From: Pseudomonadota bacterium
GTDB lineage: Bacteria; Pseudomonadota; Alphaproteobacteria; UBA2136; JAPKEQ01
Direction: 5' to 3'
Length of the DNA stretch: 64,000 nt
NCBI GenBank assembly: GCA_036141575.1
Contig: JAYZXF010000011.1
Span: 205,021-269,020, forward strand
Shown: positions 2,923 to 61,021 of the stretch, piece after piece
Layout of the letters: every line of letters begins with the position of its first letter
How positions within the stretch are numbered: position 1 is the first letter of the stretch
The notes under the pieces: model-generated
What the model saw: only the letters and a program-made list of their open reading frames with translations
The model's database searches: none
What the model was told of the DNA's origin: nothing
Translations under genes and position numbers: made by a program

Positions 2923-4728
2923 ATGACATCACAACCTATTTCAGCAGAAGCAACAACTGCTCTCTCAGCGACTGGTAAACGTTGGTCTCGCAGGAGCGAT
3001 AACGACGAAGCCGTTTTTGATCTATCAAGTAAAACAGGCCTGCCTGAGAGTGTGGCGCACATTCTTGTTGGTCGTGGTATTACTGACCCTCAATCGGCAG
3101 TTTCATTCTTAGATGTCAATTTATCAGATTTAGAAGATCCGTCTCATTTGAAGGATATGGATAAGGCCGTTGAGCGCCTTGTTATAGCGCTTAAAAACAA
3201 GCAAACCATTGCTGTATTTGGTGACTATGATGTAGATGGTGGTTGTGCGAGTGCCATTCTTTTGCGCTACTTGCGTGCTCTTGGCGCTGAACCGCTCCTT
3301 TATATCCCTGACCGTATGACAGAAGGTTACGGCCCAAACCCAGAAGCGATGGATAAGCTGAAGGAAATGGGTGCAGAAGTTGTGATTACCGTAGACTGCG
3401 GAAGTGTCGCGTTTGAGCCTATGGCACGTGCTGCAGAAATTGGCCTTGATGTGATTATTACAGATCACCACCAAACTAAGCCTGAAAAGCCTGCTTGTGT
3501 TGCCTTTATTAACCCAAATCGGGTGGATGAAACATCACCATGCACAATGCTTAGTGGCGCAGGGGTCGCGTTTTATCTCGTGCTTGCACTGAACCGTGAA
3601 CTTCGCGGGCAAAAATTCTTCACTGAGAATGACCTTAAAGAGCCTGATAGTCGTGAACTTCTAGACCTTGTGGCCGTCTCAAGTGTATGTGATATGGTCC
3701 CGCTGATAGGTGTAAACCGCATCCTCACAAAGCGTGGCCTCCAAATGATGGCCTCTTATAAAAACCAAGGCCTTAAGGCTCTTGCAGAAGTGTGCAGCAT
3801 TACAGAACATCCCAATACGTACCATGCAGGGTTTTTGATTGGCCCTCGTATTAATGCGGGTGGTCGTATTGATTCTTGTGATCTTGGTGCCAGGTGTCTG
3901 TCTACAACTGATGAAAATGAAGCTCAAGCCCTTGCTGTGAAGCTTGATGGGCTGAACGTAGAGCGTAAACAAGTTGAAACAGAAGTTCTTGAAGATGCGA
4001 TTATTCGTATGGATCAAGTTTTCCGTGAGGGTGATAATGCTTTGGTGGTTGAAGCGGAAGGTTGGCACCCTGGTGTTGTTGGTATTGTGGCAGCACGTTT
4101 GAAAGAAAAAGTACACCGCCCAACCTTTGTGATTAGTGTTGAGGACGGTGTTGGTAAAGGGTCTGGCCGTTCTATTTCAGGAATTGACTTGGGTAAAGCG
4201 CTGCGTGATAGCGAAGACCTGCTACAAAAAGGTGGGGGCCACGCTATGGCTGCCGGTCTGACCATTGATGCAGATAAAATTCATGAATTCCGCAAACGTC
4301 TGGATCAGTTGGTTGGTGAGCAGGCTGAAAAAGCAGGGAGAGATGTCTTTACGCCTGTAACGAAATTTGATGGTGTGCTCTCTCTATCATCTCTCACATC
4401 TGATTTTACCAGCCAACTTGATAAGCTTGCGCCATACGGTATGGGCAACCCTGAACCTAAATTTGTATTTAACGGTGTGCAAGTGGTGCGCTCTAAAGCT
4501 GTTGGTAAAGATGGCTCGCATGTACAGGTTTGGCTTTCAGATCGGTCTGGGAAAACAATTAGCGGTATTGCATTCCGTGCCATGGAAAGTGATCTCGGCC
4601 CACTGCTGATGAGCCGCCAGCCTATGGGTGTTTCAATCCTTGGAAGTATTAAAAAAGATACGTGGCAAGGTCGCGAGCAAATTAAGATTCATGTAGACGA
4701 TGCCCGTCCCGGACAGTTCATCGGCTAA
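2923..4728 (+). CDS. recJ: Single-stranded-DNA-specific 5'-3' exonuclease RecJ
   Basis: RecJ degrades single-stranded DNA 5' to 3' in recombination, mismatch and base-excision repair. The DHH-family motifs are in order: FGDYDVDGG (residues 99-107), the PDRMTEGYG loop, VITVDCGS, ITDHHQ, and NPNR followed by LSGAGVAF. The DHHA1 signature GPRINAGGR, a GGGHAMAAG glycine-rich motif and a C-terminal OB-like domain follow. The 601-residue length is typical. The usual Thr/Ser after DYDVDG is replaced by Gly-Cys (DYDVDGGCAS). The TAA stop is the first base triplet of a large inverted-repeat structure, described separately. Confidence 0.97.
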   Translation: MTSQPISAEATTALSATGKRWSRRSDNDEAVFDLSSKTGLPESVAHILVGRGITDPQSAVSFLDVNLSDLEDPSHLKDMDKAVERLVIALKNKQTIAVFGDYDVDGGCASAILLRYLRALGAEPLLYIPDRMTEGYGPNPEAMDKLKEMGAEVVITVDCGSVAFEPMARAAEIGLDVIITDHHQTKPEKPACVAFINPNRVDETSPCTMLSGAGVAFYLVLALNRELRGQKFFTENDLKEPDSRELLDLVAVSSVCDMVPLIGVNRILTKRGLQMMASYKNQGLKALAEVCSITEHPNTYHAGFLIGPRINAGGRIDSCDLGARCLSTTDENEAQALAVKLDGLNVERKQVETEVLEDAIIRMDQVFREGDNALVVEAEGWHPGVVGIVAARLKEKVHRPTFVISVEDGVGKGSGRSISGIDLGKALRDSEDLLQKGGGHAMAAGLTIDADKIHEFRKRLDQLVGEQAEKAGRDVFTPVTKFDGVLSLSSLTSDFTSQLDKLAPYGMGNPEPKFVFNGVQVVRSKAVGKDGSHVQVWLSDRSGKTISGIAFRAMESDLGPLLMSRQPMGVSILGSIKKDTWQGREQIKIHVDDARPGQFIG

Positions 4729-4830
4729 AGCTTATATGCAGGATAACTTTTCCCTTTTGCTTCAGCTGAAGTAGTTGGTACTACTCTGCGCTTTGCAAAA
4801 AGAAAAATTTACCTCTGCCTATATGCTTTA
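4726..4830 (+). ncRNA. Large structured hairpin starting at the recJ stop codon (copy A)
   Basis: The region folds into one long, interrupted hairpin. Pairings seen directly: TAAAGC 4726-4731 with GCTTTA 4825-4830; ATAT 4734-4737 with ATAT 4821-4824; GC and AGG at 4738-4742 with GC and CCT at 4812-4818; CTTTTGC 4754-4760 with GCAAAAAG 4795-4802; AGC 4764-4766 with GCT 4790-4792; AGTAG 4770-4774 with CTACT 4781-4785 around loop TTGGTA. A second copy with the same layout but different stem bases lies after fumC at 59507-59599. There is no U-tract of the normal intrinsic-terminator kind. The function is unknown: 3'-UTR element, small RNA or palindromic repeat are all possible. Confidence 0.6.
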
Positions 4831-4856: not shown

Positions 4857-5738
4857 CTACTCAGCCATTTCAATGCGGTTTCGGCCAGCTTCTTTCGCTT
4901 TGTAAAGGCCTTTATCTGCAACTTTAATCAGTTCGTCAGCGCTTTTATCGCCCGTTTCAGGATTTGTACAGATTCCACCACTCATGCTGACAGTATACTC
5001 TTCACTTTCAAAGGCTTTAAAGATCGCTTCACGCAAACGGTTCGCAAAGAGGAGGGCACCTGCTGTATCAACAGTTGGAAGAATAACAGCAAACTCTTCA
5101 CCACCGTAACGCGCTGCTACGTCAAGCATGCGGACTTGTGAGCGGATCACGTCAGCAACCCCTTTAAGGACACGGTCGCCTTCAGCGTGACCATAAGTGT
5201 CATTCAATTTCTTAAAATGGTCTAAATCAAACATGAGGAGAGACAGTGCACCACCATAACGAACTTGGCGCTCGAGCTCTTCTTTTAGGCGATATTTGAA
5301 AGTGGCTTGATCAAAGAGCCCGGTCAGGCCATCACGTGTTGCCACATTTGTCAGAGAAGCCATTTTGCTCTCTTCAATAACTGTCACTGACTTCATCAAG
5401 TTGGCAATATTTGTCAGGTAATCATGTGTAGCTACTGGAATGCCAACGTCACGTCCTAGTGTCTGTTTCATCGCTTGTCTGTGTGCGCCAATTTCATCCC
5501 AAAGATGTTTGGCTTGACGGGCAGGGAAGGAGCGGTGTGTGAGGGCGTAAAGGATGTCAGAGTAAATGCCTTCACCGCGCTCATTCATAAGGCGCTCTAA
5601 GATATGTTGTTCACGTGCATTCATGGCACGGTCACCAGCAATGGCACTCACCATGCGTACATCAAGATCTACACGACTCATAAGAGTTTCGCGTTCGTTC
5701 TCAAGTGTTGGCGGTGTTTGTGCTGCTGTAAAATTCAT
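4857..5738 (-). CDS. Diguanylate cyclase (GGDEF domain)
   Basis: This enzyme should make c-di-GMP from two GTP. The C-terminal GGDEF domain (about residues 140-293) is intact: the active-site signature is GGEEF (about residue 212), preceded by exactly five residues by an RMLD inhibitory I-site, so product feedback is expected. The N-terminal 130 residues show no membrane segment or known sensor; they look helical. A longer reading frame reaches a TTG at 5774. I chose the ATG at 5738 because a strong promoter (TTGTCG-N17-TATACT) sits over the upstream part and its start point would fall at or next to this ATG, making the mRNA leaderless. No Shine-Dalgarno site is visible. Confidence 0.9.
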   Translation of the reverse strand: MNFTAAQTPPTLENERETLMSRVDLDVRMVSAIAGDRAMNAREQHILERLMNERGEGIYSDILYALTHRSFPARQAKHLWDEIGAHRQAMKQTLGRDVGIPVATHDYLTNIANLMKSVTVIEESKMASLTNVATRDGLTGLFDQATFKYRLKEELERQVRYGGALSLLMFDLDHFKKLNDTYGHAEGDRVLKGVADVIRSQVRMLDVAARYGGEEFAVILPTVDTAGALLFANRLREAIFKAFESEEYTVSMSGGICTNPETGDKSADELIKVADKGLYKAKEAGRNRIEMAE

Positions 5739-5745
5739 GGGGCGT

Positions 5746-5774
5746 AGTATAGCGCTCTTTCTAAGAAACGACAA
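5746..5774 (-). promoter_or_regulatory. Sigma-70 promoter giving a leaderless start for the diguanylate cyclase
   Basis: On the minus strand TTGTCG (5774-5769), a 17-nt spacer and TATACT (5751-5746) are followed by 7 nt and then ATG. The predicted start point coincides with the start codon. Confidence 0.65.
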
Positions 5775-58102: not shown

Positions 58103-59509
58103 ATGAGCGATAAGAACCAGCAGTTTAGATCTGAACAAGATACAATGGGAACAGTAGAAGTTCCTTCTGAGGCGTATTGGGGTGCTCAAACCCAGCGTTC
58201 ATTGCATAACTTTAAAATTGGTACGCAGAAATTTACACCGGATTTTGTACGTGCTTACGCATACCTTAAAAAAGCATGTGCTACAGTCAATGCTGACCTT
58301 GGTAAGTTGGAGCGTGAAAAGGCGGATGCGATCTGTCGTGCGGCGACTGAGGTTGTTGAGGGTAAGTTTAATGACCAGTTTCCTCTTGCTGTTTGGCAGA
58401 CAGGTTCAGGTACGCAAACAAACATGAACGTCAACGAAGTGATTGCAAACCGCGCAATTGAAAACGAAGAAGGTGTGATCGGTTCTAAAGACCCAATTCA
58501 CCCGAATGATCATGTGAATATGGGCCAATCAACAAACGATACATTCCCAACTGCAATGCATATTAGTGCAGTGCTTGCGGTAGAGGAGAAGCTTCTTCCA
58601 GCCCTTAAAAAGCTACAAACGGCTCTGCATGAAAAGTCTGAGTCATTCCGCCACATTATTAAAATTGGTCGTACGCACCTGCAAGATGCAACACCTTTGA
58701 CGCTTGGCCAAGAGTTCAGTGGTTATGCAGCGCAGCTAACAAAAGGCATTGAGCGTGTGGAAGCAATTCTCCCAGAGCTTAAGGAGCTTGCGGTTGGTGG
58801 TACAGCTGTAGGGACAGGTATTAATACGCACCCAGAGTTTGATGCGCGTGTGGTGAAAGAAGTGTCTCGCCTAACAGGGCATGATTTTACTGTGGCGATG
58901 AATAAGTTTGAAGCGATTGCAACGCATGATGCAATTGTAAACGGAAGTGGTGTTCTAAACACGATTGCAACGTCATGCATGAAAGTTGCGAACGACATTC
59001 GTCTGCTTGCATCTGGCCCTCGTTGCGGTATTGGTGAATTGAATCTTCCATCAAACGAGCCGGGCAGTTCAATTATGCCAGGTAAGGTAAACCCAACGCA
59101 GTCTGAAGCTCTTACAATGGTATGTGCTCAAGTTATGGGGAACCATGTAGCAGTTACCGTTGCAGGGTCTAATGGTCATTTTGAGCTAAATGCATTTAAG
59201 CCTGTGATGATTCATAACTTCCTTGAGTCAGTTGATATCCTGAGTGATGCAATGGTGAGTTTTGCAGATAACTGTGTGGTTGGTATTCAGCCAAACCGTG
59301 AGAAGATTGACCATAACCTGACAAACTCTCTCATGCTTGTAACAGCACTGAACCCTGTGATTGGTTACGATAACGCAGCCAAGGTTGCGAAAAAGGCCCA
59401 TGCTGAGAACACGACTCTGAAAGAATCTGCAATCTCTATGGGGCTTGTGGATGAGGTGACATTTGACAATGTTGTGCGTCCTGAAACAATGGTTGAGCCT
59501 CAGAAATAA
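58103..59509 (+). CDS. fumC: Class II fumarate hydratase
   Basis: A 468-residue enzyme of the TCA cycle that hydrates fumarate to malate. Motifs: [53 protein letters not shown] and the superfamily signature [13 protein letters not shown]. The TAA stop begins a large hairpin (described separately). The ribosome site is weak. Confidence 0.97.
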
Positions 59510-59599
59510 TTAAGCAATTAGCAGCTTTACTTTTTTCAAGCTCAAGTAGATGGACTACTACACGCTTTTCAAAAAGATAAACCTGCTAAACCTTAATTA
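59507..59599 (+). ncRNA. Large structured hairpin starting at the fumC stop codon (copy B)
   Basis: Pairings seen directly: TAATTAAG 59507-59514 with CTTAATTA 59592-59599; AGCAG 59520-59524 with CTGCT 59583-59587; TTTA 59526-59529 with TAAA 59578-59581; CTTTTT 59530-59535 with AAAAAG 59571-59576; AGC 59539-59541 with GCT 59564-59566; AGTAG 59545-59549 with CTACT 59555-59559 around loop ATGGA. The inner AGC..AGTAG..CTACT..GCT core and flanking C-T-tract/A-tract match copy A after recJ; the outer stem differs in sequence but is again fully paired. Confidence 0.65.
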
Positions 59600-59621
59600 T
59601 TTCTGTGTATAGGTTATAGTT

Positions 59622-60191
59622 ATGAATAAGCTTTTTTATCCATCTCCAAATCACGAGCCTCGCACAGAGGATATAAAGTACATTGTTGTACACGGGACAT
59701 GGATGGAAAGTGATAAAGAGGCGCTTGAGCGCCTCTCATGCCCTCAGGCGAAGGTGAGTTGCCATTACTATATTGATCAGCAAGGCCAGCTTATTCAAAT
59801 GGTGGCGGAGACCCAAGTGGCGTGGCATGCAGGTGTGAGCGCGTGGCGAGATGATGTCAGCTTGAATAAAAATTCAATCGGTATTGAGGTGTCTGTTCTG
59901 CCTCATCAAAAATTCCATGAATGCCAATATGAGACGCTTGAATGGCTCCTTAAAGACTTGAGGGAGCGTTATGCGCTCTCTACGGATGTTGTACTTGCAC
60001 ATAGTGATATTGCGCCGAACCGTAAAGATGATCCGGGGCGTGGTTTTGATTGGGGGCGCTTAGCCTCTCGGGATTTGGTTTTAAATAAACCTGAGTCTTT
60101 AGATGTAACAAATCCTGAAAGCCTGCGTGCGTTTGGCTATGTGGGCGAGGATGCTCATATCCTTAAAGCAGCAAAGTTGCGCTGGGGCTAA
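59622..60191 (+). CDS. ampD: N-acetylmuramoyl-L-alanine amidase (AmpD-like)
   Basis: A 189-residue amidase_2-family zinc enzyme that cleaves the muramyl-peptide amide bond in wall recycling. Zinc ligands and catalytic residues: IVVHGT (first His), VAWHAGVSAW, NSIGIEVSV (Glu) and VLAHSDIAPNRKDDPG (second His and the Lys/Asp of the catalytic loop). No signal peptide, so it is cytosolic. It lies downstream of the fumC hairpin. A neighbour of rnpB and mraZ, as often in alphaproteobacteria. Confidence 0.9.
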   Translation: MNKLFYPSPNHEPRTEDIKYIVVHGTWMESDKEALERLSCPQAKVSCHYYIDQQGQLIQMVAETQVAWHAGVSAWRDDVSLNKNSIGIEVSVLPHQKFHECQYETLEWLLKDLRERYALSTDVVLAHSDIAPNRKDDPGRGFDWGRLASRDLVLNKPESLDVTNPESLRAFGYVGEDAHILKAAKLRWG

Positions 60192-60674: not shown

Positions 60675-60683
60675 ATTTTAAAA

Positions 60684-61021
<338 letters not shown>

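Follow-up and report, generated by a model that had tools for sequence, protein, structure and literature searches.

A family of DNA hairpins with covarying arms and replication-tied orientation in Alphaproteobacteria

Described systems and the hairpins behind recJ and fumC

Integron attC sites are imperfect hairpins of ~60-140 nt that lie after genes and are defined by their structure and their unpaired bases. KOPS and Chi are duplex motifs of ~8 bp oriented from origin to terminus, and the Rickettsia palindromic elements are palindromic repeats, of a size similar to that of the hairpins described below, which occur in Alphaproteobacteria and are known inside reading frames. REPINs are mobile hairpins, again of similar size, that carry no genes of their own (PMC3116915), while the orientation of IS200/IS605 elements follows replication because the lagging-strand template serves both as donor and as target (PMC5371812).

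The hairpins described here are self-complementary repeats of ~90-115 nt that lie between genes. They share with the RAYT-associated REPIN/REP sequences a size of ~100 nt, an intergenic multicopy hairpin, compensatory changes and tandem clusters, but here the apical core is conserved and the outer arms vary, whereas REPINs consist of two terminal REP motifs with a variable spacer. They also differ from REPINs in their strict replication polarity and in that no RAYT (Y1_Tnp, PF01797) is found in 18 genomes of the order. The same absence of PF01797 matches separates them from IS200/IS605 elements (IS608, ISDra2), with which they have the orientation along replication in common and, in the IS, the recognition of hairpins; the element contains no transposase gene, and it forms one large hairpin in place of small subterminal ones. 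Integron attC sites are imperfect hairpins of similar size that likewise often follow genes, but the terminal GTTRRRY/RYYYAAC boxes are lacking here (alignments A6 and A7 and the G123 set, inspected without an attC model), and the copies are scattered beside housekeeping genes, with no cassette array at the inspected loci. Polar orientation is also a property of KOPS and Chi, and one orientation flip here, at the origin region on contig C18 of G123, would fit it while a second, on C12, does not; those motifs are, however, ~8-bp duplexes and not ~100-nt hairpin repeats. Rickettsia palindromic elements are set apart by description, without comparison of sequences, given that the copies here are intergenic. 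The family is REPIN-like in kind, and the chance that it is something new is fair. The f2-type element had no match in collections of phages, plasmids and viral contigs, and no description of the family was found in the open-licence literature.

The window, i.e., the whole stretch of 64,000 nucleotides that was analysed, carries two members of the family (Table 1). The two matching large hairpins that had been noticed at 4726-4830 (copy A) and 59507-59599 (copy B) are indeed present, with folding energies of -29.9 kcal/mol (z -3.75) and -24.7 kcal/mol (z -5.29), respectively, and none of 200 shuffles of either sequence folded as well. Their outer stems start at the TAA of recJ and fumC, and in copy B the pairing runs five bases further, into the fumC coding sequence (AGAAA/TTTCT). 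In the orthologue of copy B in a second species of the genus (G001, the MAG 'Alphaproteobacteria bacterium isolate ANT-120'), this stem is kept with an AAG codon and a matching change on the 3' side. The cores of the two copies are ~87% identical (mean column identity over 53 columns), an agreement that is far above chance for unrelated gene ends 55 kb apart. The signature of the family is an asymmetric internal loop, TGA/CTGC in copy A. Further along the window, a bacterial RNase P RNA of class A is found at 60680-61021 on the minus strand (304 bits).

Table 1. Hairpin features and adjoining genes, in positions of the window
Feature	Position	Strand	Basis or remark
Copy A, full nested hairpin	4726..4830	+	outer stem TAAAGC/GCTTTA, first bases are the recJ stop; fold z -3.75
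Copy A, stretch matching the 87-position family model R2	4735..4821 (G000:C11:209755-209841)	+	75.7 bits, E 1.8e-12
Copy A, conserved apical core AGC-TGA-AGTAG-loop-CTACT-CTGC-GCT	4764..4792	+	sequence and alignments
Copy B, full hairpin	59502..59604	+	extended outer stem AGAAATAATTAAG/CTTAATTATTTCT, takes in last fumC codon (AAA) and stop
Copy B, stretch matching R2	59517..59590 (G000:C11:264537-264610)	+	44.7 bits, E 1.6e-5
Copy B, conserved apical core AAGC-TCA-AGTAG-ATGGA-CTACT-ACAC-GCT	59539..59567	+	sequence, fold, alignment
recJ, upstream of copy A	2923..4728	+	TIGR00644, E 2e-166
GGDEF diguanylate cyclase, convergent with copy A	4857..5774	-	TIGR00254 / PF00990
fumC, upstream of copy B	58103..59509	+	TIGR00979, E 2e-230
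N-acetylmuramoyl-L-alanine amidase (AmpD-like), downstream of copy B	59622..60191	+	PF01510

Further copies and covariation of the stems

Plain blastn of copy B against related genomes gave no clear homologues, and covariance models were therefore needed; the exact core pattern of the two copies matches only these two among 61 genomes. A core model built from copies A and B, as the earlier note had proposed, retrieved ~14 more copies in the genome of the window (G000), from E 3e-7 downwards in score, and seven in G001. With the 87-position model R2, which includes the outer stem, 56 candidate copies were examined in G000, those below ~35 bits being less certain; more were found in relatives. 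The 298-kb contig C17 of G000 holds a single weak match.

Covariation, suspected from outer stems that differ between A and B and still pair, is strong across the family. In an alignment of 21 sequences, 67 cells were changed on both sides of a pair (shuffled mean 26; 0 of 500 shuffles as high), and the covariation score was 0.335 versus 0.09-0.15 for slid partners. This set was picked with a structure-aware model and leans towards structure, but a second alignment, from another genus, agrees more strongly. The shared consensus core is GCYTA-nGTAn-loop-nTACn-CNNC-GC with the asymmetric internal loop, and the unpaired loops are conserved inside well-paired stems in both alignments. It is clear that the hairpin, which the earlier note did not recognise, belongs to a real covarying family; neither of the outcomes that the note had named as refuting it, a lack of further copies or stems that do not covary, has come about.

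In G001, the copy of element A behind recJ (L059:4804-4890) lacks its 3' half and is joined to the end of the GGDEF gene; judging from the sequence, this half was apparently lost by deletion between two CTACTCAGC repeats. The element behind recJ is dispensable in this species, given that its 3' half is gone.

The second alignment comes from genus g2 of a sister family (G002, G013, and G015), where a hairpin of ~111 nt is almost perfectly paired, at about -40 to -80 kcal/mol, and carries the same core, GGC-TTA-TGTAC-loop-GTACA-CNGC-GCC. In this genus, covariation is seen at 25 of 40 pairs and double changes number 97, a value that 0 of 500 shuffles reached. A second subtype in this genus (L227:2010-2120, L221:2005-2110, L151, L241, L245, L253, and L254) differs in its middle and outer stems (GGTGCTTTTT...AAAAATCCCTC), and some of its copies keep the same core. 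At L239, L250, and L226, further conserved small palindromes lie downstream of the hairpins (GACGGCGCTGCGCGCCGG; TTGGCGC...GCGCCAA), an arrangement that is mosaic as in BIMEs.

Related cores occur elsewhere in the order and in ~10 other alphaproteobacterial families, with at least 30 copies in G002 and 60 in G123. Of 385 genomes sampled from the class, 12 contained the core pattern, and ten of these lie outside the order, while a reversed control pattern gave isolated matches only. Most, not all, of the core-pattern matches fold into same-core hairpins; those at L303 and L312, for example, give poor folds and may have arisen by chance.

Orientation along replication

In G000, 54 of the 56 copies agree in orientation within their contig, whereas 20000 simulations of chance gave a mean of 40 and at most 49. 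The G-rich strand, i.e., the one on which local GC skew is positive, carries 50 of the 56 (p 1e-9) and, among the best copies (at least 55 bits), 20 of 21; for genus g2 the figure is 37 of 37. In G002, all 30 listed places are on one strand (+) of two contigs, rows for the minus strand being mirror matches at those same places. These copies concentrate at C2:578-1018 kb and C1:4-75 kb, where GC skew peaks, and ~1 Mb of this genome is nearly devoid of them. Almost everywhere it was sampled along C1 and C2 of G002 (~1.5 Mb), GC skew is positive; this would be unusual in a chromosome replicated in both directions, other than through the orientation of the contigs or replichores of very unequal length.

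In G123, an unrelated genome, the 60 copies are uniform within most contigs: C2 (9 plus), C7 (11 minus), C11 (8 minus), and C19 (8 plus). On C18, five minus copies are followed by five plus copies, and the flip interval (65.6-127.8 kb) holds hemE, mnmG/gidA, parB, and gyrB. The order hemE-gidA-parB-gyrB is the usual neighbourhood of the alphaproteobacterial origin, which this interval presumably represents. Since the orientation changes across these genes, the copies to either side of the origin region point away from it. An independent check of polarity by GC skew is precluded in G123, where the skew is too weak. A second flip from minus to plus, at C12:10198-39832, is not explained by a single origin, and is possibly due to an inversion or a misassembly. 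Nearly every copy points along fork movement, which suggests that the element spreads or acts as DNA, on the strand that the fork leaves single, and is not an RNA signal for the ends of genes.

Mobile hairpins and alternative readings

Several properties of the copies bear on how they spread. Five copies in G125, at unrelated loci, are nearly identical over the inner ~82 nt, and their outer arms of 8-12 bp vary from copy to copy and are mostly complementary within each. The copies of G123 have sharp ends at TAGGATTG...CAATCCTA with unrelated flanks, and some are arranged in tandem, in arrays of 108-117 bp. In G015, a stretch of 7 kb holds three nearly identical copies, adjoining ordinary chromosomal genes. 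Subfamilies are lineage-specific, and at some orthologous positions related species carry intact hairpins of different sequence, which means that turnover is rapid. Copies with identical or nearly identical inner sequence at unrelated loci, together with their sharp ends and their tandem arrays, indicate that the repeat is mobile.

We give a probability of about one half to a family of non-autonomous mobile DNA hairpins, of ~90-115 nt, that enter the lagging-strand template. The conserved apical core, the covarying arms, the dispersed and in part tandem copies and the replication-tied orientation are observed directly. Under such a mechanism, the strand that reads along fork movement would be exposed as lagging-strand template and would fold into the hairpin, a putative enzyme would recognise the conserved internal loop, and the hairpin would insert into the same exposed strand; all copies would point one way because insertion targets that strand. 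Insertions just past gene ends would survive best, and replication template switching, selection for folding or a combination of the two may keep the arms complementary. Template switching is the simplest account of the compensatory arm differences between near-identical copies.

Against mobility count the second flip on C12 of G123 and the persistence of orthologous positions between species, with stems diverged but intact, which fits a host function as well. The mobilising enzyme was not found either: a search for Y1_Tnp, confined to the order, was negative in all 18 of its genomes, and the control was positive in 5 of 14 known genomes. No unequivocal pair of empty and occupied sites was found, the one candidate, for the second element of L248, being suggestive only. 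In G002, the place taken for an empty site of the first L248 element turned out to hold another subtype. Inspection by eye revealed no target-site duplication.

The main rival of the mobile hairpin is a polar site used by the host, KOPS- or Chi-like, that a translocase, fork or segregation protein reads from origin to terminus, with selection fixing both orientation and folding. The polarity of the G123 copies on both sides of the origin region agrees with this, as do positions conserved between G000 and G001 and among G002, G013, and G015 despite sequence turnover, and the unpaired loops conserved in well-paired stems. Nonetheless, we consider it unlikely: near-identical copies restricted to single lineages, tandem arrays and sharp ends have the look of recent dispersal, ~1 Mb of G002 and nearly all of C17 in G000 would be left without sites, and a length of ~100 nt far exceeds that of KOPS or Chi.

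The earlier note had also considered a structured RNA, which would here take the form of an element in 3'-UTRs or of genes for small RNAs that run in the direction of replication. Covariation and high fold stability are in line with this, and copies often lie just past stop codons and ahead of terminators, but strong stem covariation alone does not prove a functional RNA. The neighbouring genes of the 56 copies in G000 are arranged at random (17 > <, 16 > >, 12 < < and 11 < >), single contexts possibly being wrong as they come from simple longest-ORF calls. For 23 copies the left-hand gene is on the opposite strand, and 12 copies are antisense to both neighbours. A start flush with the stop codon, as claimed for A and B, holds for these two, and is not the rule: it is confined to copies whose left-hand gene runs in the same direction, and of these 33 copies ~27 start within 20 nt of the stop. 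In well-paired columns of three sets, G-T mismatches number 7, 6, and 14 versus 15, 19, and 28 for A-C (27 versus 62 in total), so that the sense strand has no excess of G-U. In tRNA acceptor stems from the examined loci, used as control, the counts are 10 and 0, with the reservation that tRNA detection itself favours G-U and that cells are not independent. Rfam 15 gave no match on the element at the gathering threshold and nothing credible at relaxed thresholds, where weak terminator-type leaders appeared on adjoining terminators only. Random gene context and the lack of a surplus of G·T over A·C mismatches weigh against a 3'-UTR RNA, and an orientation that follows replication and ignores gene direction speaks against a processed small RNA also. 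An RNA folded from the complementary strand would still fit, since an A-C mismatch reads as G-T in the opposite strand. Overall, the RNA reading is quite improbable. What the note had proposed as a palindromic repeat inserting at stop codons is retained as a palindromic repeat, for which insertion at a stop codon is a frequent consequence.

We regard as very unlikely that the hairpins are a purely mutational product, created and perfected by template switching at the fork (quasipalindrome correction), with a strand bias producing the polarity and no need of mobility or function. Template switching creates and repairs hairpin stems (PMC8794818), and in E. coli it is reported to be strand-biased (PMC7202029). 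In its favour are arms that differ in a compensatory manner between copies of nearly identical inner sequence, the few mismatches, and a 3' arm of copy B that mirrors fumC coding sequence. It does not explain the shared core in many families, the retention of specific unpaired loops, or the dispersed near-identical copies and tandem arrays, and as an origin it is at odds with dispersed G123 copies that share ends and core by descent. As an added process that maintains the arms, template switching may well operate. Intrastrand triplex repeats (PMC4666352), brought to mind by the T and A tracts, were rejected since only two strands are available and no third tract is conserved.

Beyond the mobile hairpin as such, we put forward tentatively, as possible rather than probable, a new class of replication-polar single-strand DNA hairpin present across several alphaproteobacterial families, either mobilised at forks by a putative non-Y1 recombinase or put to use as a signal that reads from origin to terminus. 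While dispersed palindromes of small size are common, a covarying hairpin of ~100 nt with strict replication orientation that flips at the origin region would tie the spread of a repeat, or a function of the chromosome, to the replication fork. For unfinished genomes, the family would offer a natural marker of replication direction. Its copies are independent cases in which template switching and selection in stem pairing may be set against each other, and the family may provide a lead to a putative enzyme acting on single-strand DNA.
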